This document shows, piece after piece, positions 30,405-61,724 of a stretch of 64,000 bases of DNA; position 1 is the stretch's first letter; each line of letters begins with the position of its first letter. The notes beneath the pieces were generated by a model that worked only from the letters and a program-made list of their open reading frames with translations, did no database searches and was not told the DNA's origin. The position numbers and the translations under genes are program-made. This DNA is from a virus: positions 64,001 to 128,000 of IMG/VR virus record IMGVR_UViG_3300042731_006512. One strand, given 5' to 3'.

Positions 30405-31589
30405 TGACTACTCCTCTACCTGAAAGGTAGGGGCTTCTACGGGTTTAATACCGATGCTCTGTAGCCCCAGAGCAAGAATATTCAGAGACGCATTAAGATC
30501 TCTGTCTATAGAAAGAAAGCAATGAGGGCATTTATGGGTGGTTTCATTCAAGGTTTTAGAGACGAGACAGCCGCAACGAGAGCAGATCTGAGAGGTATAG
30601 GCTGGGTTGACTAATACTACACAGCCACCAGCTTCTTCCGCTTTGTTAGCTGTTAGTGTGATTAGTCTGCTCCATCCTACATCTGCGATAGATCTATTAA
30701 GGTCACGCCATTTATGCATAGTCTTGACTCTTAGATCTTCAAATATGACGCCATCATATTTGTTAACCCAAGAGCGAGAAAGTTTATGTTGAAAATCACG
30801 ACGTTTATTTGCTATGCGTTCATGAATACGAGCAATGACTTTCTTGGGTTTTTCTAAACGTTGAGCTTTAGCAAGAGCTTTTAGCTCCACTTGAAGAAAA
30901 CGAGGGTTAGAGACTTCGGTATTATCAGAGAGAGTAGCTACTTTTCGCGCTCCCAAATCTATACCTACCACGGTAGAGATAGGGTGATTATCAATGTCTG
31001 GTAGCTCGACAGAGAAGCAGGCGTACCATTTATTTGTAGAAGTTCTCCGAATAGTTAGAGTCTTTACTTTACCCTGAAGCTCTCTGTGAAGTTTAATGTT
31101 CACGATACCTATCTTTGATAGATAGAGGCCATCTTCGCAGAGTTTAAATCCTGATTGAGGGAAAGTGAAGCTATCGTAACGTTTCCAACTTTTGAAACGA
31201 GGAAACCCTGGTTTCTCAGCTGTCTTGAGACGCCGAAAGAAAGCTTTAAAAGCCAAATCTACCCGTTGCTGAGCATTTTGAAGCAGTTGAGAATGTGTAT
31301 TTTTTAGAAATGGAAACTCTGATTTCCATTGTGTGAGGAATGCATTTGTGTCATAGTTGGTTAGTGTTTTTCGCTCAGCCTCATAGGTTATTTTTCGCAG
31401 TTCAAGAGTTTTATTATAAACAAAACGACAGGAATCAAGTGTAGATTTTAGCTTTATCAGTTGCTTCTTAGACGGATAGATTCTGTATTTATAAGTCTTA
31501 CGCATTAAGGAGATCATACAATGAAACACTTAAAAAATCAAGCTTTTATCCACTCTGTAAACGAAATGGCTTTAAGCTTGGGAACCGAT
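30405..31589 (-). mobile_element. IS605-type element carrying tnpB (element type 1)
   Basis: Bounded by comparison with the deleted copy at 56236-56408: ends are TGACTACTCC (30405) and GGAACCGAT (31589). The left-end side has a CAAGCTT/AAGCTTG subterminal palindrome (about 31540-31581). The gene-3' side holds the hairpin CTACCT-TTC-AGGTAG region expected at the 3' end of an omega-RNA; on the minus strand the guide would start just past 30405. No tnpA transposase is present, so mobility needs one in trans. Confidence 0.7.
30408..31505 (-). CDS. tnpB: TnpB RNA-guided nuclease, complete catalytic set
   Basis: 365 aa from the ATG giving MRKTYKYRIYPSKKQ (a longer frame to 31529 exists). RuvC residues D183 (GIDLGARK), E256 (IFEDLRV) and D336 (DRDLN) are all present, with a zinc ribbon CSRCG...CPHC. 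The N-terminal helix-turn-helix and central linker are of normal length. TnpB uses an omega-RNA copied from its own 3' end to cut DNA beside a TAM, keeping the element in the genome. Read opposite to its neighbours, which marks recent insertion. Confidence 0.9.
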   Translation of the reverse strand: MRKTYKYRIYPSKKQLIKLKSTLDSCRFVYNKTLELRKITYEAERKTLTNYDTNAFLTQWKSEFPFLKNTHSQLLQNAQQRVDLAFKAFFRRLKTAEKPGFPRFKSWKRYDSFTFPQSGFKLCEDGLYLSKIGIVNIKLHRELQGKVKTLTIRRTSTNKWYACFSVELPDIDNHPISTVVGIDLGARKVATLSDNTEVSNPRFLQVELKALAKAQRLEKPKKVIARIHERIANKRRDFQHKLSRSWVNKYDGVIFEDLRVKTMHKWRDLNRSIADVGWSRLITLTANKAEEAGGCVVLVNPAYTSQICSRCGCLVSKTLNETTHKCPHCFLSIDRDLNASLNILALGLQSIGIKPVEAPTFQVEE

Positions 31590-32747: not shown

Positions 32748-32771
32748 TTTTTCGAAGATAAATTCGAAAAA
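32748..32771 (+). terminator. Perfect 9-bp hairpin upstream of the ubiquitin-like operon
   Basis: TTTTTCGAA (32748-32756) pairs with TTCGAAAAA (32763-32771), loop GATAAA. Lies between the previous stop and the Shine-Dalgarno of the Ubl gene. May be a weak terminator, a 5' processing stem or an operator palindrome (TTCGAA). Confidence 0.4.
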
Positions 32772-32791
32772 CAAACAAAAAGGAGACTATC

Positions 32792-33019
32792 ATGTCAGTA
32801 CGAGTTCGATTCGCTAATTTCGCCGAGGACAGTTTTGCTTCTGATTATCTAGCAGATGATGGCACTACTCTCGCGCAGTTTCTTGATTCACAAGATGTCG
32901 ATGTGGATGAGGGCAACTTTCGCATTTCTGTTAACGGTCAAGAAGCTACAAGAGATTATCTGCTTCATGACAACGACAGAGTTCGCCTCACTCCGCGCAA
33001 GATGAAGGGCGCCGCGTAA
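32792..33019 (+). CDS. Ubiquitin-like beta-grasp protein (Ubl)
   Basis: 75 aa. Strand-strand-helix-strand pattern: VRVRFANFAED, TTLAQFLDSQ, FRISVNGQEA, DYLLHDNDRVRLTPRKMKGAA. The 'VNGQxA...L.DxDxVxLxxxxxKG' C-terminal half is the layout of ThiS/MoaD and prokaryotic ubiquitin-like proteins that are partners of E1 enzymes. The tail is KGAA rather than GG; a JAB peptidase is two genes away and could trim to Gly. First gene of a six-gene operon. AGGAGAC ribosome site. Confidence 0.75.
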   Translation: MSVRVRFANFAEDSFASDYLADDGTTLAQFLDSQDVDVDEGNFRISVNGQEATRDYLLHDNDRVRLTPRKMKGAA

Positions 33020-33034
33020 GAAAGAGGTCTCATT

Positions 33035-33889
33035 ATGGAGAATCTGGCTATACTTGAAAGCGAGCGCTCGTTTTGTGTAAAAAATAGAATAGAAGATATC
33101 ATTCTCTGTTTAAAAAGATGGTCTGTTTGTCGTAAACATGCAATAAGAATCAACTCATTAGAAAAAAGACTACATACAACATCTTGTCCAAAGATAATAC
33201 TAAGCTCTCTGTTAGATAAAGGTGGACGATACGGCCTTACGGACTATGATGCTAGATTATTGAATAGTATGATAGCAAGCTTGTTATACCTAATGCACAC
33301 AGCAGATGAGATAAAGTCTATTTTTACAAGAGGTCTGTTTCAAGAATATTTTCCAAGGGTTTTTTGCTCGAAACTATACCTAACTACGCCCGAGGTAATA
33401 CTTAGCGGTATAAACTTTGGCAGATTTAGGATAAGTTATAACTGGAAAAACAACGAGTTCACTTATAACTGTGTAAATACTCCAGTATATTCATACATGG
33501 ATAGGTTTCATTTTTGTAGAAGTCAGATATGTCACCCGCTTTTTTATTACCTGCGAGATGATCTATGTATGGATATAAAGGAATATCTGAACGCTTCAGA
33601 CTTTTCTCTTGTCGAAAAGCTCGAGCGGCTGGTTGGAACCATTTCTGGTAAAGAGATAGATTTTTCTGAAATAATAGAATATTACTGGGGACCGAGAATA
33701 TGTGCATATTGCAGCCGAAACATAAAATCCAAAAGTGACATAACCAAATGCATAGTATGTGGCCGACAGATTTGTCCTAACTGCTTAGTACTAGAAACTT
33801 GGAGAGAATTTATAGAGGGATGTACGAAAATTTGTGACTTATGTCAAGATTGCGCTAAAAACCTAATGGAGAGACCTCAATGGCTTTAG
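33035..33889 (+). CDS. E2-like protein A with C-terminal RING/treble-clef-like domain
   Basis: 284 aa. VILSGINFGRFRI aligns with VLEGAELGRFSL of the next protein, and C-H167-P168-L...R-D-D-L-C178 occupies the place of the E2 active site (HPN...IC). From C223: CAYC, CIVCGRQICPNC and CDLCQDC give a binuclear zinc pattern like RING or treble-clef E3 domains. Either an active conjugating enzyme with divergent site or a scaffold/inactive partner of protein B. Overlaps the next gene by 10 nt. Confidence 0.6.
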   Translation: MENLAILESERSFCVKNRIEDIILCLKRWSVCRKHAIRINSLEKRLHTTSCPKIILSSLLDKGGRYGLTDYDARLLNSMIASLLYLMHTADEIKSIFTRGLFQEYFPRVFCSKLYLTTPEVILSGINFGRFRISYNWKNNEFTYNCVNTPVYSYMDRFHFCRSQICHPLFYYLRDDLCMDIKEYLNASDFSLVEKLERLVGTISGKEIDFSEIIEYYWGPRICAYCSRNIKSKSDITKCIVCGRQICPNCLVLETWREFIEGCTKICDLCQDCAKNLMERPQWL

Positions 33890-34935
33890 ACGAATTTATT
33901 TCTCAGGCAGAACAGGTTTTTTGCTCATCAGTGAATGACATACAAAAACAGTTGAAACAAGACTTTTTTAATCAAATACCAGCCTGTTGTAGAGTAGAAA
34001 ACGAAGTATTAATAAATGAGATTTTAGTAAAGAAACAAATAACTTTGGAAAATATTTCAAAACTAAAATCCAGATTAACTTTACCTAAAAGGCTCGAGAA
34101 GCGATTAAGAAAACTGACGGCTATTTCCAAGCCAGATTTGAAGGAAGCAAGGCAATCGATTGAAATATTAAAAGATAGATTTGGTGATACAGTCAAAATT
34201 TATAGTGACGTAATAACTTACATAACAGAACCTATAGTTTTAGAAGGTGCAGAACTAGGAAGATTCAGTCTACGTTTTACATTAGATGTATTATCTTCAG
34301 CAATAGTCGATAGAATCTCTAATGTTCAAGCTATGGCATTAGACCCAAATGTTAAACAAGGACATAGTCACCCACATATAGACTCTGGTGGAAGAGTATG
34401 TTTCGGAGACGCCCAAAATGCGTTAGCCATGGCTGCGGTTTCTCTTGACATCGCAGCATATTTTGAAATATTAGAAGCGGTCCTGAGCACGTATAATCCA
34501 GAAAGTCCTTATGTAGGTATAGAAGAATGGATAGGATACACGTGCGATGATTGTGGACAGTCAGAAGTGCAAGAATGTTACACATGTGTAAGTTGTGAAG
34601 AAGGCACTCTATGTAGTGACTGCGCTCTATATTGTGATGAGTGTCACGAATATTATTGTATGAACTGCTATACAGAGGGTGTTGACTTAGAGTATCTCAA
34701 GTGTCCAGAATGTGGACGCAGGCAGTGTAAATGCTGTTGTGAAAACGAGTCAGCTCAATGCGAAGACTGCGGTCGATATATGTGTGGTGATTGTATAGTA
34801 TTTAGTTGCGACGAATGTGAAGGAATGTTTTGTGCAGAATGTAGTCGAGATGCTCTACATTGTCGTGATTGTGAGAAAAGTTTCTGTCCCGAATGTGCAC
34901 GCAGTCATTCGTGCGAAGAAGGAGAAAACAAATGA
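33880..34935 (+). CDS. E2-like conjugating protein B fused to Cys-rich RING-like array
   Basis: 351 aa. H164-P165-H166-I-D-S-G-G-R-V-C174-F-G-D matches the E2 signature HPN-I-x-x-x-G-x-I-C with active-site Cys174. Residues about 215-350 hold some 35 Cys in CxxC pairs (CDDCGQ, CVSCEEG, CDECHEYYCMNC, CPECGRRQC, CEDCGRYMCGDC, CDECEGMFCAEC, CRDCEKSFCPEC), like tandem treble-clef/RING or IBR fingers. A fused E2-E3 architecture is inferred. Stop overlaps the JAB start (ATGA). Confidence 0.75.
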   Translation: MALDEFISQAEQVFCSSVNDIQKQLKQDFFNQIPACCRVENEVLINEILVKKQITLENISKLKSRLTLPKRLEKRLRKLTAISKPDLKEARQSIEILKDRFGDTVKIYSDVITYITEPIVLEGAELGRFSLRFTLDVLSSAIVDRISNVQAMALDPNVKQGHSHPHIDSGGRVCFGDAQNALAMAAVSLDIAAYFEILEAVLSTYNPESPYVGIEEWIGYTCDDCGQSEVQECYTCVSCEEGTLCSDCALYCDECHEYYCMNCYTEGVDLEYLKCPECGRRQCKCCCENESAQCEDCGRYMCGDCIVFSCDECEGMFCAECSRDALHCRDCEKSFCPECARSHSCEEGENK

Positions 34936-35822
34936 AAACCCTAATATTTTCACCCAAAGCCTGGCTTAAAATACTCTATATGAAGAACTCTGCAGAGACT
35001 GAAGTATCTGGCTTCGGTATTTCACAAGTAGACAATCCACTATATGTAGAAGACTTTATTACTGTCGAACAAGAGTGTACGGCTGTAACCACAGATATGG
35101 ATGAAAATGCTCTCGAGAGATACTTTGAAGAGCAAGAAGAAAAAGGATTACCAATCTCATCTTTCTTTCGTATCTGGATACATACTCATCCGAATATGAC
35201 TCCGTCTCCATCGAGTGTTGACGAAGAAAACTTCAAAGATATGTTTTCTACTTGTACTTGGGCAATAATGGTCATTGTAGGCAAGGATGAAGAAGTCTAT
35301 GCTCGACTACAGCTTAATAAAGTTGATGTAGTCGGCAAGTTCGAAACGAAACTGAACGTAGAAATAGACTGGGATTCTCTATATTCAGAGTTGAAAGAAA
35401 GTTGGCAAGCAGAGCTAAAAGAAAATATTAAAAAGAAAGTCTGGACTACATCTGCTTCTCAGCCTTGGCGAACATATCAAAACTGGATGCCAAATCAGTT
35501 TGGTAGTCAACAAAACTGGCAGACTAAAGCTGCTGTTCAGCAATCGACTTCACTTACTTCAGAATACTCAAAAGCAAATGAAACTATTCTTTCAGAGTTG
35601 GATAAAGAACAAAGCGCTCAATCTTCCTCTTCGCCAGGTCTTTTAAAAGGTAAACTAAAAAAGATTATTGATAGACTAGACGACTTTGACAAGACAGCTC
35701 TAATAGATGAGATTGATGACTACTACGACCTTGAATACTTGTATTCGAATACGGTAGGTGTCGAAGATTCAGAAGGCTGGTCAGCTAATGTATTCACTGG
35801 AAAGGACGGAAACGATGAGTGA
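34932..35822 (+). CDS. JAMM/JAB metalloprotease (deubiquitinase-like)
   Basis: 296 aa. E24 in EVSGFG and H84-T-H86-P-x6-S94-x2-D97 reproduce the JAMM motif (E, HxH-x7-S-x2-D) exactly. About 150 residues of JAB domain, then a Gln/Ser-rich linker (QQNWQTKAAVQQSTS) and a helical tail. Predicted to cleave isopeptide bonds or process the Ubl tail. ATG 34932 follows GGAGAAAACAA and overlaps the E2 stop. Confidence 0.85.
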   Translation: MKTLIFSPKAWLKILYMKNSAETEVSGFGISQVDNPLYVEDFITVEQECTAVTTDMDENALERYFEEQEEKGLPISSFFRIWIHTHPNMTPSPSSVDEENFKDMFSTCTWAIMVIVGKDEEVYARLQLNKVDVVGKFETKLNVEIDWDSLYSELKESWQAELKENIKKKVWTTSASQPWRTYQNWMPNQFGSQQNWQTKAAVQQSTSLTSEYSKANETILSELDKEQSAQSSSSPGLLKGKLKKIIDRLDDFDKTALIDEIDDYYDLEYLYSNTVGVEDSEGWSANVFTGKDGNDE

Positions 35823-36048
35823 AAATCAAAGACCAAGTAAGAAAATATCTTTTACTTATTCTTTGGATACTTGTGTTTTATGTCCGCTTGTACATTCAGA
35901 AAGAACTTCAAGGGCTGGTTTTGCCTTAGATTACTATTGTTTAGAAGTATACCCCAGAAGAAAAGTTATGAGTTATGTTGAGGGCGAGCGCGATTTCAAA
36001 GAAGTACCTGACTGGTGTCCACATTTAGTGAAAGATATAAAAAGATAA
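35815..36048 (+). CDS. Small Cys protein within the Ubl operon (77 aa)
   Basis: ATG at 35815 overlaps the JAB stop. CVLCPLVHSE ... YYCLEVYPRRK ... PDWCPHL is a small four-Cys phage-type pattern with a 'PDWCP' end. No link to ubiquitin chemistry is known; it may be a metal-binding accessory. The 36713 protein has a loosely similar Cys/aromatic make-up. Confidence 0.5.
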   Translation: MSENQRPSKKISFTYSLDTCVLCPLVHSERTSRAGFALDYYCLEVYPRRKVMSYVEGERDFKEVPDWCPHLVKDIKR

Positions 36049-36062
36049 GGAGCAAATATAAG

Positions 36063-36716
36063 ATGGCTTCTGACAGATATTCTCGCCAAGAAGGACTCGT
36101 ATTGCTAGACGAGCTGGAAAGAGATGAAGTTTCAGTTGTTGGGGTAGGTGCAGTTGGAAGAAATGTTGCTATTCAGTTGGCAGCAATGGGTGTACCAAAT
36201 CTTCATCTTTTAGACTTCGACCAGGTCGAAGAAAGTAATGTTGCTTCTCAAGGTTATTCTGAAAGCGATATTGGTAAATATAAAGTAGAGGCAGTAGCAT
36301 CATCTTGTTTAGCAATAAACTCATCAATAAACCTTCGTCTCGAGAACGATAGATATAGAAAAAAATCGTCTCTTGGAAAAATAGTATTTTCTTGCGTTGA
36401 TTCAATGTCTGCGCGCAAGCTAATATTTGAAGGCACTAACTATAAACGCAGATTACTTGTAGATGGCCGAATGCTTGGTGAAGTATTTCGTGTATTGTCA
36501 GCTTGGGATGAAAGTTCGAACCAGTATTATTCCACGACTCTATTCTCTGATAGTGAAGCAACTCAAGGTAGGTGTACAGCACGTTCAACTATTTATTGCG
36601 CTAGTATTCTTGCAGGTTTTGAGATTTCTTGCCTGGCGCGCTGGTTAAGAAAAGAAGATTTAGATAAAGACGTATTAGTCAATCTATCTTGTAACGAGTT
36701 GGAGATTACAGCGTGA
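36063..36716 (+). CDS. E1/ThiF-like Ubl-activating enzyme
   Basis: 217 aa. D-RYSRQ at the start, nucleotide loop V-G27-V-G29-A-V-G32, LLDFDQVEESNVASQGY...GKYKVEA, and candidate catalytic C171 in GRCTARSTIYCA. These are the ThiF/MoeB/E1 landmarks: adenylation of a Ubl C-terminus then thioester on Cys. It is shorter than most ThiF proteins and lacks obvious zinc Cys pairs. Last gene of the six-gene run; stop overlaps the next start. Confidence 0.8.
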   Translation: MASDRYSRQEGLVLLDELERDEVSVVGVGAVGRNVAIQLAAMGVPNLHLLDFDQVEESNVASQGYSESDIGKYKVEAVASSCLAINSSINLRLENDRYRKKSSLGKIVFSCVDSMSARKLIFEGTNYKRRLLVDGRMLGEVFRVLSAWDESSNQYYSTTLFSDSEATQGRCTARSTIYCASILAGFEISCLARWLRKEDLDKDVLVNLSCNELEITA

Positions 36717-36919
36717 ATAAATCTAAAAACCTAATACCTAAAGGCCCATATTGCTACGATAAAAATGGTGTTTGTCCATATTGGTCTCTAAACAAAGATA
36801 GAGAATATCAAAACAATGGATATTGTTCTTTCTTGGAAAGGGGTGATTGGCAAGAAGATTGGTTTTCTTTACTTTGGGACCAAGTCAAGGAGTGCGGGGT
36901 TAACGAGGAGGAAAAATAA
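36713..36919 (+). CDS. Hypothetical Cys/Trp protein (68 aa)
   Basis: GTG start overlapping the E1 stop. KGPYCYDKNGVCPYWSLNKDREYQ...GYCSFLERGDW resembles small Cys proteins that follow phage accessory genes. Ends on the ATG of the ligase gene. Unknown. Confidence 0.5.
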   Translation: MNKSKNLIPKGPYCYDKNGVCPYWSLNKDREYQNNGYCSFLERGDWQEDWFSLLWDQVKECGVNEEEK

Positions 36920-38070
36920 TGGCAAATGAAGCAGTTATACTTCGGCCCTACAAGATAGAAAAACATCCAAATGCCGATCGCTTGGACCTTCTCACTCTGC
37001 GTGGAGAAGGCGGCTTCACTTGTGTAGTAGGCCGAAATCAGTTTTCAATGTCAGATTTTGTGCTCTACATCGAGCCGGATTCAGTTATTCCAGACAACAT
37101 TAAAGAATACCTAGAAGAAACCAGTAAGATTAAAATATCCAGCAGAATACGAGCTATCAAGCTGCGAGGCATTATTTCTGAAGGACTATGTTTGAAGCCT
37201 GAAGACTTTTTAAAGCCAATAGATATTGTTGAAGATAAAGATGTATCTTCTTTGATTGGAGTTACTCACTACGAACCACCACCACCAAAAGGACAAGGCT
37301 GGAAAAGCGTAAAAGGCACAAACCCTTGGTATAAGAACAAAGCTTTTCGCATTTATAATCATATAGATAGGTTTGAAAAAGTCTGTCGTTGTTTTGAAGA
37401 AGGTATGAACGTTCATATTTCTACCAAACTGCATGGAATGAACTGGAGAGCTGGTATTTGTCCCAAAGAGCCAAAAAACTGGTGGCAGAAGTTATTACAA
37501 AAGCTTTGTATTTTGCCAAAAAACGAGTTCCTTGTTGGTTCACATAAAACTGTGCGCAATGTAGGTAAAAAAGGCAAGCCCTTGCCTCCAGAAATGGAAA
37601 ATCAAGACAACTTTATTTTGGCTGCGCGCAAGTATGACATAGAAACAAAACTTAGAGAACTATATCATAAGCTTAATGACAAAAATATAGTTCTTTACGG
37701 AGAGCTTATAGGCTGGGGAGTAAATGTTCCTTTACAAAAAGGATATTGGTATGGTATTCCCAAGGGAGATGTTGAGCTTCGTATATTTGATATTATGGTA
37801 GATGGTAAATACTTAGACATGGATATTGTTCTTGGTTTATGTCGAGAGTATAATCTTCCACATGTAGATACTCTTTATGAAGGACCATTTAATCTTGATT
37901 TACTAAGCCTCGCGCAAGCAGTAGATAAGATTGGCAACTGGAAAGGTAATCGAGAAGGCATTGTTATCAAAGCACAACCAGCAAAGCACGACCCAAGAAT
38001 GGGTTATGTTGTAGCCAAGAAAATCAATCCAAAATACTTGTTGGATAAGTCCAACACAGAGCATCACTAA
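36919..38070 (+). CDS. RNA ligase (Rnl5/DraRnl-like)
   Basis: 383 aa. N-terminal OB-type module (KIEKHPNADRLDLLTL...CVVGRNQF) as in Deinococcus DraRnl. Catalytic motif I is K170-L-H-G, with motif III-like VLYGELIGWGV, IV EGIVIKA, V VAKKINPKYL. Joins RNA ends via a lysyl-AMP. Sits directly after the Ubl operon, and an RlaP nucleotidyltransferase, whose name comes from RNA-ligase association, is at 52339. Suggests RNA repair against host anticodon nucleases (inference). Confidence 0.85.
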   Translation: MANEAVILRPYKIEKHPNADRLDLLTLRGEGGFTCVVGRNQFSMSDFVLYIEPDSVIPDNIKEYLEETSKIKISSRIRAIKLRGIISEGLCLKPEDFLKPIDIVEDKDVSSLIGVTHYEPPPPKGQGWKSVKGTNPWYKNKAFRIYNHIDRFEKVCRCFEEGMNVHISTKLHGMNWRAGICPKEPKNWWQKLLQKLCILPKNEFLVGSHKTVRNVGKKGKPLPPEMENQDNFILAARKYDIETKLRELYHKLNDKNIVLYGELIGWGVNVPLQKGYWYGIPKGDVELRIFDIMVDGKYLDMDIVLGLCREYNLPHVDTLYEGPFNLDLLSLAQAVDKIGNWKGNREGIVIKAQPAKHDPRMGYVVAKKINPKYLLDKSNTEHH

Positions 38071-52046: not shown

Positions 52047-52330
52047 AACGTAATCCTCCAAAACCTATCTACAAACAGCCGTGGGAAACCATAGAAATAA
52101 AACCCTGGTCCTGGAAACTCTGCTCTGCTTGTAGACAAGAGTTTCGCAGAGAAAACGGGTGGAGAGTAAGTAGAAGATATTTTAGTAGATTATTGGAAAA
52201 TGGTCATATAGAAGAGAACTTTGGAAGTTCAGTAGAACACATTTTCTATTTTTGCGCCAGATGTCTAAAAACAGAGAAGGCTGTAAATGACTATTTTGCA
52301 AAAAACTACGAGAAGATGTATATTCGTTGA
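52043..52330 (+). CDS. Zinc-binding basic protein (95 aa)
   Basis: ATG 52043 overlaps the previous stop. CSACRQEFRRENGWRVSRRYF...FYFCARCLKTEKAV: CxxC...CxxC metal site with basic residues. Unknown. Confidence 0.5.
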   Translation: MKRNPPKPIYKQPWETIEIKPWSWKLCSACRQEFRRENGWRVSRRYFSRLLENGHIEENFGSSVEHIFYFCARCLKTEKAVNDYFAKNYEKMYIR

Positions 52331-52338
52331 GGATACAT

Positions 52339-53418
52339 ATGGATAGCCAATACATATTAGATAATACCATCTTTCTAACACGTGCAGGTTCTCATGCCTA
52401 CGGAACTTCCACTCCAGAAAGTGATGAAGATTACCGAGGAGTAGCAATAGTGCCAGACAAAGCGTATTATTTTGGAACTGGCATGAAATCATTTTCTCAA
52501 ATGGATAAAGGATTTCAAGATGATAGAGTAATATATGACATTAGAAAGTTTGTATCCCTTGCTGTTCAAAACAACCCGAACATAATAGAACTTTTGTTTG
52601 TAGATAATAGATTTGTTTTACAAAGTAGTACATACTGGGAAAAACTTGTTGAAAATAGACAAAAGTTTCTTTCTAAAGCTTGTCGTTATAGATTTGGCGG
52701 CTATGCATTTGCCCAGTTAAAACGTATTAAAAATCATCGTGGCTATCTGATGAATCCGCCTAAAAAGAAACCTGAACGCACAGACTTTGGCTTACCAGAA
52801 AGAAAACTTATCAGTTCTGACCATATGGGAGCTTTTACTTGGTTAATAGCTTCCTTTCTCAAAGGAAGTGTAGAAGAGCTGAATCTTTCTGACACAACAA
52901 AAAGCGAACTTAGAAATGTAAACTGGATAGGATTAGCACAAAGCAAGACAGACAAGTTACCAGTTGAATGTTATAACAGTCTTAAGGATTTAACTGGGGC
53001 ATCCGATGAGTTTGTCGATGTAATGACGAGAGAAAAAGCTTACGTCAGTGCATTAAATAACTGGAATGCTTATCTAGATTGGCAAAAGAGAAGAAACCAA
53101 TCCAGAAAAGAGTTAGAAATAAAGTTTGGATTTGACACTAAACATGCGATGCATTTGGTTAGGCTTTTAAGAATGGCAAAAGAAATATTGGAAACTGGTA
53201 AGGTAACGGTCTATAGGCCAGACAGAGAAGAGCTACTTGCTATACGTAACGGTGCTTGGACATATGAACAGATTGTTGACTATGCGGAACAATCAGAATG
53301 TACATTAAACAAGCTCTACGAAGACAGTTGTCTTCCGCGAAAACCAAAAGCGGCTTTTATAGAAAGTCTTTGTTGTGAGATAGTAGAGGATTACATCTAT
53401 AATCGAGCCATAAACTGA
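52339..53418 (+). CDS. RlaP-type nucleotidyltransferase (RNA-repair family)
   Basis: 359 aa. G17-S18-HAYGTSTPES-D29-E-D31-YRGV is the pol-beta nucleotidyltransferase signature (GS and D-x-D), followed by Lys/Arg-rich helical domains as in RlaP (RNA-ligase-associated) proteins. Transfers nucleotides to an RNA or other acceptor. The RNA ligase at 36919 gives a likely partner. ATG at 52339 preferred to TTG 52327. Confidence 0.75.
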   Translation: MDSQYILDNTIFLTRAGSHAYGTSTPESDEDYRGVAIVPDKAYYFGTGMKSFSQMDKGFQDDRVIYDIRKFVSLAVQNNPNIIELLFVDNRFVLQSSTYWEKLVENRQKFLSKACRYRFGGYAFAQLKRIKNHRGYLMNPPKKKPERTDFGLPERKLISSDHMGAFTWLIASFLKGSVEELNLSDTTKSELRNVNWIGLAQSKTDKLPVECYNSLKDLTGASDEFVDVMTREKAYVSALNNWNAYLDWQKRRNQSRKELEIKFGFDTKHAMHLVRLLRMAKEILETGKVTVYRPDREELLAIRNGAWTYEQIVDYAEQSECTLNKLYEDSCLPRKPKAAFIESLCCEIVEDYIYNRAIN

Positions 53419-56974: not shown

Positions 56975-58561
56975 ATGCCTTCTGTTATGTCAGAAATATC
57001 AAACTTTATTGCTGCGCGTGTGCCATTAATCTGGGTCACAACACACGAAGAGAACCGTTTTCTTACTGAGTTTACTTCATCGGTAGTATCTTCTCTTAAG
57101 CTATCTCTTTCTGTATGGTCACAAACCTCTGGCCTTAGGTCATTGGTTAGAACTAAAGCTGAAACATTTACTGGAACTGAAGCTCCTATTAATGCTTTCA
57201 AAAAGATATCAAGTCTGCCAGAAGCCAACTATCAACAAGTATTTGTTATGAAAGATTTGTTTCTCAATCCACTAGAAGTTCGCTATCTCCGTGATATGTA
57301 TGAGGATTTAGCTGATTCTGGCAAGACTATAGTAATAGTTTCTCCTTTTCTGGCGCACAATCCTGGAGGAAGCAGAGAAGGTATACCAGCTACTCTAGAA
57401 AAACAAGTATGTGTTGTCGAATATTCACTACCATCTTTTGAAGATATAGTTCAGCGAATAAAGAAGTTCATATCTTCTGTTAATAGTAAAAGAAAATACT
57501 CAGAAAAAGAAATAGAAGAACTTGCACGAGCATTAAGTGGTCTTACATCTTTGGAAATAGATAATGCTATATCTACCTGCCTAGCAGAGCTTAAACATTT
57601 GGACAGTGAATACCTTCTATCTTTTAAGAAACAGTCCATACGCAAGTCTCAAGTATTAGAGTTTATGGAGACAGACGTAGATATAGATAGTGTTGGTGGT
57701 CTTGACAGGGTAAAAGAATATTTTGGTAGATACAAAGATTGTTTTGACAGCAGCGCTATAGAGTTTGGAGTTGAACCACTGAAACTTGTTCTAATGACAG
57801 GGCCGCCTGGAGTAGGTAAAAGTCTGACGTGTAAGACGATTGGGCATCTGTTTAAACTGCCACTATTGAAGCTAGATATGGGCAGAATATTTGGAAGCTT
57901 AGTGGGTGCTTCAGAATCCCGCATGAGAGAAACTCTTAAACAAATCGAAGGATTAAGTCCTGCCATCGTAATGATTGACGAAATAGAAAAAGGACTATCC
58001 GGAACGCGCTCGAGTAACCAAAGTGATGGAGGAACAACATCTCGCGTGTTTGGAACATTACTTACTGCTATACAGGATGGTCTTAAAAATGTATTGATTG
58101 TTGGAACCGCAAATGATGTGACATCTATTCCTCCAGAGTTTATACGAAGAGCTAATGAAGTATTCTTTGTCGACTTGCCCGGCCCAGAAGAAAGATGGGA
58201 TATATTACGCATTCATTTAGAGAAAAGAAAGAGGAAGTTTTCTCGGTTTAATGATATGAGGGATAAGTTTCTGTTAGCTTCCCAAGGTTTTACTGGTGCA
58301 GAAATAGAAAAAGCAGTCAAGGATGCTATTGCTCGTGCCTTCTATGAAAAAAGTGACGACGTAACATCCCAACATATTCTTGCGGCGCTATCTGAAACAA
58401 AACCTATTTCACAAGTAATGGAATCTCAAATAAAAGAGCTTCAAGAATGGGCACGTAACCACGCAAGATATGCAAGCAGTTATTCTGAACAACAAAATAG
58501 AACTGTAAGTATAGAACCAACTGATTCTAAGCGAATGAAGAAGCTAAGGAGTTTAAACTAA
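56975..58561 (+). CDS. Ycf46-like AAA+ ATPase
   Basis: 528 aa. Walker A GPPGVGKS (276-283), Walker B IVMIDE (D335, E336), sensor VGTAND, Arg-finger-type EFIRRAN, and a helical lid (GFTGAEIEKAVKDAIARAF). Preceded by an N-terminal domain (about 1-240) typical of Ycf46/FtsH-like single-AAA proteins. Likely remodels protein complexes. It sits with DUF1257 (59645) and DUF2997 (61944) genes, a conserved companion set. ATG after AAAGGAAAGAAA. Confidence 0.85.
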   Translation: MPSVMSEISNFIAARVPLIWVTTHEENRFLTEFTSSVVSSLKLSLSVWSQTSGLRSLVRTKAETFTGTEAPINAFKKISSLPEANYQQVFVMKDLFLNPLEVRYLRDMYEDLADSGKTIVIVSPFLAHNPGGSREGIPATLEKQVCVVEYSLPSFEDIVQRIKKFISSVNSKRKYSEKEIEELARALSGLTSLEIDNAISTCLAELKHLDSEYLLSFKKQSIRKSQVLEFMETDVDIDSVGGLDRVKEYFGRYKDCFDSSAIEFGVEPLKLVLMTGPPGVGKSLTCKTIGHLFKLPLLKLDMGRIFGSLVGASESRMRETLKQIEGLSPAIVMIDEIEKGLSGTRSSNQSDGGTTSRVFGTLLTAIQDGLKNVLIVGTANDVTSIPPEFIRRANEVFFVDLPGPEERWDILRIHLEKRKRKFSRFNDMRDKFLLASQGFTGAEIEKAVKDAIARAFYEKSDDVTSQHILAALSETKPISQVMESQIKELQEWARNHARYASSYSEQQNRTVSIEPTDSKRMKKLRSLN

Positions 58562-58827
58562 TGCTTACCGCACAACAAGCAAAAGAAATAGCAGATGAAG
58601 TAACTGGGCGGAAGAATATTTCTAGCCTAATGGGCCATATAAGAAAGCGAGCCGAAGTAGGGTTTTATGACTATACTATGCAACTAAAACTATTCTCTGA
58701 GTATACGTGTTCACCTGAAGAACTTGAAGGGTATGGGTTTAAGGTAAAGATATACTTCAGTGAAGTATATAAACGACAGTTTATAGAAATAAATTGGGAA
58801 GAAGGAGAAGAAATAAATGCCAGATAA
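58561..58827 (+). CDS. Hypothetical protein (88 aa)
   Basis: Abuts the AAA+ stop. LTAQQAKEIADEVTGRKNISSLMGHIRKRAEVGFYDYTMQL: helical then beta end. Overlaps the GroES gene by 11 nt. Unknown. Confidence 0.5.
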   Translation: MLTAQQAKEIADEVTGRKNISSLMGHIRKRAEVGFYDYTMQLKLFSEYTCSPEELEGYGFKVKIYFSEVYKRQFIEINWEEGEEINAR

Positions 58828-59161
58828 CTATGACATAGAAAGTATTTCAGTAGAATCCAATCCAGAAAAGATGAAACCAATAGGTAATCAAGTTGTTATT
58901 AAACTTGAGCCATTGCCAGAAAAGACAGAAAGTGGATTATATCTACCGGTAGATAGTAAAGCTCACGAACATTGTCAAGGTACAGTAGTAGCAATGGGTC
59001 CTGGAAAAGTTGCTCCCAAGACAGGCATTCGATATCCAATGGAGCTTAAGGTTGGAGATAAGGTTCTAATAGGAAGGTTTGGCGGCGCAAACTTTGACTT
59101 TGAAGGACAAACCTATCGTATTATTAATGAAGAACAAGTTTATTGTGTAATAGAGGAGTAG
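58817..59161 (+). CDS. groES: GroES-like co-chaperonin
   Basis: 114 aa. GNQVVIKLEPLPEKTESGLYLPVDSK, GTVVAMGPGKVAPKTGIRYPMELKVGDKVLIGRFGGANFDFEGQTYRIINEEQVYCVIEE is full-length Cpn10 with an N-terminal extension of about 20 aa. The mobile-loop region is present. No GroEL gene in the window, so it would work with host GroEL, as known for phage T4 Gp31. Suggests a phage protein needing a custom cap for folding. Confidence 0.85.
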   Translation: MPDNYDIESISVESNPEKMKPIGNQVVIKLEPLPEKTESGLYLPVDSKAHEHCQGTVVAMGPGKVAPKTGIRYPMELKVGDKVLIGRFGGANFDFEGQTYRIINEEQVYCVIEE

Positions 59162-60555: not shown

Positions 60556-61724
60556 ATAATCGTAGGTTTTCCTCGGCATAGAAACCTCTTCTTTTAAGTG
60601 AAAGAGGAAATGCCGCTCCTTTCTTTCGATTTTTGTTATAGATTAATGTATCATTGATTTCAGGATGATATTGACTTTCCGATACAGAATCAAAAATCCA
60701 AAGCACCTTGCTGACAAAGCTATTGCTGTCAATCAGGTCTGGAACTATTGTTGTGATGTCCAGAGGCAAGCTCACAGAAGAAGACGAAGATGGCCTACTG
60801 GATTTGATTTGTGTAAGTTGGTTGCTGGCAGCACAAAAGAGCTTGGTCTTAACTCTGATACAGTTCAGAATATAGCAACACAGTTTGCAAAATCTCGAGA
60901 CCAACATAAAAGAAAGCCAAAATGGAGAAAGTCTTTCGGCAGTCGTCGCTCCCTCGGATGGATTCCATTCCAAGCAGCTCGAGCTATTAAAGTTGGCAAT
61001 GGCTTTGTTAAATATCTCGGAGTCAAATATCCAATATGGATGCACAGACCAATCGAAGGTGTTATTAAATGTGGTTCGTTCAACGAAGATGCCAGTGGCA
61101 GATGGTATATTAATCTGCAATGTGATGTCCCTGAGGAAATATGTGTTGGCAGTGAGTCTATCGGTATAGACCTTGGATTGAAAGATATGGCAACACTCTC
61201 TACTGGCGAGAAACTTGCCAACCCAAGGTATTACAGACAGAGTGAAGAGAAGCTTGCTAAAGCCCAACGCGCAGGCAGAAAGAAACGAGTTCAGGCAATA
61301 CATAGAAAGATTAAAAATAAAAGAAAGTATGATTTGCATGTAGCTTCTAAGCAACTCGTACAAAGATGTAAGGAAATATACGTTGGTAACGTAAACTCGT
61401 CCCAGCTCGCTAAAACAAGAATGGCAAAATCTATTTATGATGTAAGCTGGTCGCAGTTTCGAGAGATGCTCCGCTACAAGGCCATTAGGCACGGAGTAAC
61501 TTTCGCGATTGTCAACGAAGCATATTCTTCCCAGACCTGTTCTATGTGTGGAATACTCAGCGGTCCGAAAGGACTGGAAGGTCTTGGAGTAAGAGAGTGG
61601 GTATGTGATTGCGGCGTTATTCATAATCGTGATGTCAATGCGGCTATCAACATTCTCCTCTCGGGCCAGAGTGCTGGCCTCCAGTAGACGGGAATCTCTT
61701 TTGTTTACGAAGGGGAAGTATTAC
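60556..61724 (+). mobile_element. Second IS605-type tnpB element (type 2)
   Basis: Left end holds a nested hairpin: CGGCAT/ATGCCG (60574-60579 with 60610-60615) enclosing CCTCTT/AAGAGG (60585-60590 with 60602-60607). The right end starts at the tnpB stop (61685) and runs 40 nt to GAAGTATTAC (61724), identical to 30169-30208. A GGCCAG-AGTG-CTGGCC hairpin near 61667-61682 fits the omega-RNA 3' region. Left boundary approximate. No tnpA. Confidence 0.6.
60665..61687 (+). CDS. tnpB: TnpB-family nuclease with apparent relocated catalytic Glu
   Basis: 340 aa. RuvC D169 (GIDLGLKD) and D323 (HNRDVNAA) are present, and a zinc ribbon C..CG...C.CG. The usual RuvC-II Glu site reads IYVGNVNSSQL (about 240-244) with no Glu, while VNE285AYSSQTCS has Glu where the other TnpB has P. 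TnpB clades with a moved catalytic Glu are known; this matches that pattern. Different clade from the 30408 protein, consistent with two separate element families. Confidence 0.8.
   Translation: MILTFRYRIKNPKHLADKAIAVNQVWNYCCDVQRQAHRRRRRWPTGFDLCKLVAGSTKELGLNSDTVQNIATQFAKSRDQHKRKPKWRKSFGSRRSLGWIPFQAARAIKVGNGFVKYLGVKYPIWMHRPIEGVIKCGSFNEDASGRWYINLQCDVPEEICVGSESIGIDLGLKDMATLSTGEKLANPRYYRQSEEKLAKAQRAGRKKRVQAIHRKIKNKRKYDLHVASKQLVQRCKEIYVGNVNSSQLAKTRMAKSIYDVSWSQFREMLRYKAIRHGVTFAIVNEAYSSQTCSMCGILSGPKGLEGLGVREWVCDCGVIHNRDVNAAINILLSGQSAGLQ

Follow-up and report, generated by a model that had tools for sequence, protein, structure and literature searches.

A putative ubiquitin-like conjugation operon in a phage genome

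We analysed the 64,000-nucleotide window spanning positions 64001-128000 in a virus record of 191,113 bp (IMG/VR IMGVR_UViG_3300042731_006512), in which a compact cassette of genes encodes a candidate system for conjugation of a ubiquitin-like protein (Ubl). A preliminary description, made by reading the sequence, had taken the locus for a phage-encoded Ubl conjugation operon, and this reading is now well supported, with fold, profile, catalytic-residue and synteny evidence in agreement. Genes for a portal (8.8e-43), a tail sheath (1e-78) and a major head protein (2e-19), all outside the window, identify the source as a contractile-tailed phage; the record beyond the window also carries a ribonucleotide reductase and a weak terminase match. 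In window coordinates, the genes are as follows.

32792..33019, plus strand: Ubl, 75 aa, beta-grasp fold, tail ...LTPRKMKGAA (Pfam, family profile, AlphaFold2 (AF2) and Foldseek)
33035..33889, plus strand: 'E2-like A' (E2A), 284 aa, 19 Cys, C-terminal CxxC pairs; identity as an E2 unproven
33880..34935, plus strand: predicted E2 (E2B) with ubiquitin-conjugating (UBC) fold, 351 aa; helical N-terminus, HPHI...C174-F-G-D, C-terminal Cys array (profile and Foldseek)
34932..35822, plus strand: predicted JAMM/MPN+ isopeptidase, 296 aa, E24, H84, H86, S94 and D97 (residues and RPN11 profile)
35815..36048, plus strand: small Cys protein, 77 aa, accessory (open reading frame)
36063..36716, plus strand: predicted E1, single ThiF/MoeB-type adenylation domain, 217 aa, GVGAVG, D51, K74, D113 and C171 (CTAR) (PF00899 and profile)
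36713..36919, plus strand: second small Cys protein, 68 aa, accessory (open reading frame)

The open reading frames lie on the plus strand where they had been placed and are tightly packed: the Ubl and E2A genes are 15 nt apart, E2A overlaps E2B by 10 nt, E2B overlaps the JAMM gene by 4 nt (ATGA), the JAMM gene overlaps the small Cys gene by 8 nt, a gap of 14 nt precedes E1, and E1 overlaps the second small Cys gene by 4 nt. The preliminary description had counted six genes, all of which are present as open reading frames, but just Ubl, E2B, JAMM and E1 recur in relatives. By this comparison, the core of the predicted system is these four genes.

The Ubl is a beta-grasp protein with a conserved glycine near its end

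The Ubl has a ThiS Pfam match (2.5e-4), and its family profile finds SAMP2 as the nearest solved relative (2.3e-7), with ThiS, MoaD and SAMP1 also matched. The Ubl and E2A were folded as one read-through translation (TAA read as Q, residue 76), so that the junction in the model is artificial. The Ubl part is a confident beta-grasp (predicted local distance difference test, pLDDT, 81-96 save for one block at 69), and Foldseek searches with it return SUMO/ubiquitin, Caldiarchaeum ubiquitin and SAMP1 at probability 1.00. The fold expected for the gene starting at 32792 was thus found by structure prediction.

As previously described, the protein ends in KGAA and lacks GG. Gly73 is the sole invariant column among 21 aligned Ubls, and what follows it differs widely: AA in the window, and P, A, N, AH, AL, ASR, AVC, ELN or ALN elsewhere, nothing at all in locus L011, and about 130 residues in L007 and L108. 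The Ubls of L029 and L039 run on into a second beta-grasp-like stretch, those of crAss-like and Flavobacterium phages have a conserved K-S-G followed by 100-200 more residues, and plasmid PRTRC_C tails carry TKG, AKG or RKG with the extension present or absent. The Ubl of L156, from a Heimdallarchaeota metagenome-assembled genome (MAG), ends in KIDGGSR, a true GG. A fixed glycine with a variable tail characterises precursors that are cleaved by a partner protease, and the earlier view of an unprocessed Ubl is therefore unlikely. The Ubl is probably processed at Gly73, with removal of its two-residue tail (AA). In BIL systems, BilC (JAMM) trims the tail of BilA (Ubl) (PMC11354881); the tail pattern seen here and the intact JAMM site of the cassette would agree with such trimming.

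The ThiS match, the proximity of SAMP2 and the resemblance of the E1 to ThiF/MoeB would also suit a sulfur-carrier system of the ThiS/MoaD/SAMP2 type, serving cofactor or tRNA thiolation rather than protein conjugation. We consider this very unlikely, because almost all well-covered loci have a linked E2, with conserved HPx and Cys, and a linked RPN11-like JAMM, and the nine proteins of the cassette region matched no other sulfur-transfer family.

The JAMM protease and the E1 retain their catalytic residues

The JAMM protein meets the E...HxH...SxxD signature of JAMM/MPN+ proteases. Its proposed residues are as first described and are conserved in relatives (E24 in 72/75, H84 in 76/77, H86 in 77/77, and S94 and D97 each in 78/78), and its family profile matches RPN11 (1.5e-11) as well as Caldiarchaeum Rpn11, AMSH and CSN5. 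It is predicted to act both in Ubl processing and in deconjugation. The E1 matches PF00899 (2e-25), and a profile of its close clade finds, among solved structures, UBA1 (1.8e-17), MoeB, MccB, ThiF, UBA5 and bacterial BubCD. G27, G29, D51, D53, N59, K74, D113 and R118 are present in 83/83 sequences and C171 in 80/80, in keeping with the GVGAVG motif and the catalytic C171 already noted. Catalytic residues are near-invariant across sequences that are only ~25-45% identical.

The JAMM protein also matches PADLOC JAB models (6.8e-9) and, weakly, Cap3 (4.8e-6). These matches would fit a counter-defence role, in which the set, and chiefly its JAMM, interferes with Ubl-based host defences such as BIL or CBASS Cap2/Cap3. 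A lone JAMM or a decoy Ubl would suffice for that purpose, however, while the catalytic residues of E1 and E2 are tightly conserved here, and we regard this explanation as improbable.

E2B has a predicted UBC fold and a C-terminal cysteine array

E2B has no Pfam match. When its family profile was compared with the PDB, the matches were almost solely ubiquitin-conjugating enzymes (UBE2A/RAD6, UBE2T), the best with an E-value of 0.022. The AF2 model, built from 24 sequences, has a mean pLDDT of 64.8 with the core mostly at 55-90; nearly all of its top 50 Foldseek matches are UBC or RWD folds (Ubc13, UbcH5), with probabilities of up to 0.94. All 24 E2B homologues have C174 and G176, and nearly all have H166. 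The HPHI...C174 motif picked out at the start holds up, and the gene starting at 33880 matches UBC folds in the structure prediction called for there. With moderate confidence, profile and model together point to a UBC-fold E2 with HPx and a catalytic Cys.

Past C174, E2B contains 30 Cys and 3 His. The Cys spacings are mainly 2, 4 and 3 and form a tandem C-x2-C-x4-C-x2-C-x3 repeat. Close-clade E2s share such a Cys-rich C-terminus, with 10-45 Cys past the active Cys and few His. The preliminary description had seen a RING-like array of roughly 35 Cys, and two E2-RING fusions in the operon. E2B has no RING Pfam match and its spacing is not that of a C3HC4 cross-brace, so a RING was rejected; one E2 is supported, namely E2B.

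E2A and the small cysteine proteins appear to be accessory

E2A had been proposed as a second E2 with C178 as its active Cys. It has neither an HPx nor a CxG motif, does not match the E2 hidden Markov model (E=34) and gives a low-confidence AF2 model. Its alignment with the E2 family by hhalign is limited to a short strand pair, TTPEVILSGINFGRFRIS, aligned with the E2B strand pair, and the Cys equivalent to C174 of E2B is C161, not C178. Homologues of E2A were found neither in the IMG/VR single-protein scan nor in close-clade loci. An active E2 is thus not supported; E2A may be a degenerate paralogue of E2 that is accessory to this phage. That it is a second, divergent E2 is plausible in view of locus L007, where the Ubl is preceded by a second E2-like gene that the E2 profile recognises better (1.5e-9). 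A possible third E2-like protein of that locus (L007:6934-7476, YHPHIEF...CWGQ), downstream of E1, scores 0.0099 to the E2 profile.

The proteins encoded at 35815-36048 and 36713-36919 have no homologues in close-clade loci, and domain and defence-model scans gave no convincing family for the former. The degenerate look of E2A, and a conceivable pick-up from Planctomycetota-like genomes, could suggest cargo with no current function. This we think highly improbable, since the catalytic residues are all intact, as are the overlapping reading frames.

Related cassettes in phages and cellular genomes

Viral relatives were collected with an E1 alignment, which found 80 loci, and a close-clade alignment, which found 51; the two sets overlap. 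A JAMM gene is present in 78 of ~82 loci, adjoining E1 in nearly all. E2 lies upstream of JAMM and is itself preceded by Ubl in most loci that are long enough to show it; in L010, L017, L029 and L039 the Ubl is instead downstream of E1. The linked set is therefore present in related phages, with a recurrent order Ubl-E2-JAMM-E1, which settles a point on which the preliminary description had made its proposal depend. Alignments were needed for this, as IMG/VR scans with single proteins (Ubl, E2B, E1, E2A) gave no matches.

The set occurs in crAss-like phages (cr128_1), bajarodcaudo virus and cultured Flavobacterium phages. These were the only matches of a tblastn search of annotated phages with E1; queries with E2, JAMM and Ubl gave none. 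Their E1 is annotated as 'thiamine biosynthesis' or 'E1 enzyme family', and their E2 and JAMM fall in PHROGs of unknown function. In searchable open-licence literature we found no description of a phage-borne E1/E2/JAMM/Ubl set; a crAss survey has no ubiquitin-system terms, and a jumbo-phage survey has unrelated mentions only.

Outside phages, a plasmid search gave no matches, and a prokaryotic genome scan with the E2 alignment was unproductive, the family being too divergent. The E1 scan found relatives with 42-49% identity, in 17 records from Planctomycetota (among them the complete Lacipirellula limnantheis chromosome) and in one Heimdallarchaeota MAG. Cellular loci on sufficiently long contigs show the complete order Ubl-E2(Cys array)-JAMM-E1; L165, in which E1 alone was detected, is the exception. 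L156, from the Heimdallarchaeota MAG chromosome, has the full four-gene set, with MAG contamination possible, and some IMG/VR contigs of the close clade could likewise be misclassified cellular DNA. In the Lacipirellula genome the sole portal-gene match is ~0.57 Mb from the cassette, so no obvious prophage surrounds this copy. In the E1 tree the viral sequence of L098, whose contig also encodes a terminase, clusters with the Lacipirellula E1 with modest support (93/72), which suggests exchange of the cassette between phages and cells. The tree with cellular relatives does not settle the placement of the window's own E1.

Such mobility would also fit phage-borne inter-phage defence, with a BIL-like cassette used to tag the structural proteins of phage competitors. 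The four activities are also those of BIL (PMC11354881), which has been presented as an immune pathway (PMC13373217). Features specific to BIL are absent, however, and in crAss-like and Flavobacterium phages the cassette occupies a stable block of early/DNA-metabolism genes (primase, uracil-DNA glycosylase), which better suits a core role. We therefore see inter-phage defence as unlikely, although it is the most credible of the alternatives considered. For the conjugation cascade, the location of the crAss-like cassette next to primase and uracil-DNA glycosylase speaks for a part in the infection cycle rather than for a defence island.

Proposed mechanism and its weighing

Known E1, E2 and JAMM mechanisms, together with the intact residues, suggest the following chemistry. 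JAMM would trim the Ubl precursor past Gly73, removing AA. E1 would adenylate Gly73 and keep the Ubl as a thioester on C171, from which it would be handed to C174 of E2B. E2B would then join the Ubl to lysines of target proteins, with its fused Zn-binding Cys array as a built-in element for target or E3-like recognition, and the same JAMM could take the Ubl off again.

Several points weigh against such a cascade. The E-values of individual E2 profiles to PDB E2s are weak (0.02 at best), and those of Foldseek for E2B are above 0.01. The E1 has neither a separate Cys domain nor a ubiquitin-fold domain for E2 docking, and the mature Ubl would have a single-Gly end (KG), not GG. Neither a target nor a separate E3 was identified. 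On balance, we think it quite likely that this contractile-tailed phage encodes a complete, probably active and reversible Ubl-conjugation cascade. Our confidence lies in the conjugation chemistry; as to purpose, our guess is that the cascade most likely remodels proteins of the host (or of the phage) in the course of infection.

Bacterial Ubl conjugation is known chiefly for its part in host defence. Should phages routinely encode a full cascade of their own, protein tagging would be a viral strategy as well, including in cultured Flavobacterium and gut crAss-like phages, and this can be tested in cultured phages whose genes currently go by 'thiamine biosynthesis protein' or are listed as hypothetical. 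The versions in Planctomycetota and Heimdallarchaeota are relevant to the question of where sets of eukaryotic-like E1, E2 and JAMM passed from one genome to another, and the fusion of E2 to a Zn array suggests a single-chain route to E2-E3 function.

Neighbouring genes

At 56975-58561 the window encodes a classical AAA+ ATPase of the Cdc48/Rpt clade (PF00004 and AAA_lid_3). Homologues lie within ~6 kb of the cassette in eight loci (L098-L103, L156 from Heimdallarchaeota and L159 from Planctomycetota), two of them cellular, and this ATPase may be an unfoldase partner of the cassette. We rejected it as a universal part of the system, since the association is confined to the close clade (6/131 viral loci) and the ATPase also occurs in cassette-less phages. 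A wider proposal, which we offer tentatively and with more doubt than confidence, is that phages of very different lineages (crAss-like, Flavobacterium, large contractile) share an undescribed Ubl machine exchanged with Planctomycetota and an Asgard-like archaeon, which in the close clade would use an E2 fused to its own Zn-array recognition module and may work with the AAA+ unfoldase in a tag-and-unfold pathway.

A Cpn10/GroES gene (58817-59161, 9.3e-22) adjoins the AAA+ gene. Directly after the cassette lies an RNA ligase (36919-38070, DRB0094-like, phrog_968), which in L100 is likewise found right after E1. An RlaP RNA-repair nucleotidyltransferase is encoded at 52327-53418, with a homologue 1.1 kb after E1 in L103. 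Just upstream of the cassette, on the minus strand, an open reading frame at 30408-31529 looks by eye like an IS200/IS605 TnpB-type gene, and a transposase family gene is located at 60665-61687.

Comparison with known systems

Type II CBASS (Cap2/Cap3) and the E1-E2/JAB operons of classes 6a/6b share E1 and JAB homology with the cassette. CBASS type II has a fused E1-E2 and a CD-NTase, whereas the cassette has separate E1 and E2, a Ubl gene and no CD-NTase. With the eukaryotic and archaeal ubiquitin systems (Caldiarchaeum ubiquitin, Rpn11) it shares a JAMM nearest to RPN11, a Ubl fold like that of SUMO and Caldiarchaeum ubiquitin, and a UBC-fold E2; it differs in its minimal E1 and in lacking a canonical RING E3.

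The PRTRC systems (Iyer 2006, class 6d) also encode Ubl, E2, JAB and E1 as separate genes, and their order C(Ubl)-F-B(E2)-A(JAB)-ThiF(E1) matches the Ubl..E2-JAB-E1 order of the phage cassette. ParB, E and F are adjacent there, whereas no such family is found among the nine proteins of the cassette neighbourhood. Class 6d E2s lack a His before the catalytic Cys and have a conserved His after it (PMC1779556), while in E2B HPHI precedes C174. PRTRC and phage-cassette E1s are separate in trees. PRTRC models on the cassette proteins gave 41.5 for ThiF against a cut-off of 144.75, and no match for A, B or C. Homology of the Ubl and E2 to PRTRC_C and PRTRC_B was not supported by hhalign (E2 profile to PRTRC_B, E 0.07-4.6); an initial link between E2 and PRTRC_B was circular and weakened on a rerun without L084 and L085. 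These two IMG/VR contigs carry PRTRC-like E2 genes (TIGR03737, 3e-21 and 6e-15, below cut-off).

BIL (BilABCD) has the same gene content, with the Ubl, E2, JAMM deubiquitinase and E1 activities that are predicted for the cassette (PMC11354881). BilA has two Ubl domains, whereas the window Ubl is a single beta-grasp of 75 aa (two in some relatives, e.g. L039). BilB carries a CEHH motif (PMC11354881), while E2B past C174 reads FGDAQNALAMAAVSLDIAAYFE, with no E-x-H...H, and has HPH before the Cys. BilD combines an inactive and an active adenylation domain with a ~80-aa Cys domain; the phage E1, at 217 aa, is a single ThiF domain. As the cassette lacks defining features of both BIL and PRTRC, we place it in neither; by analogy, it is predicted to work like both.

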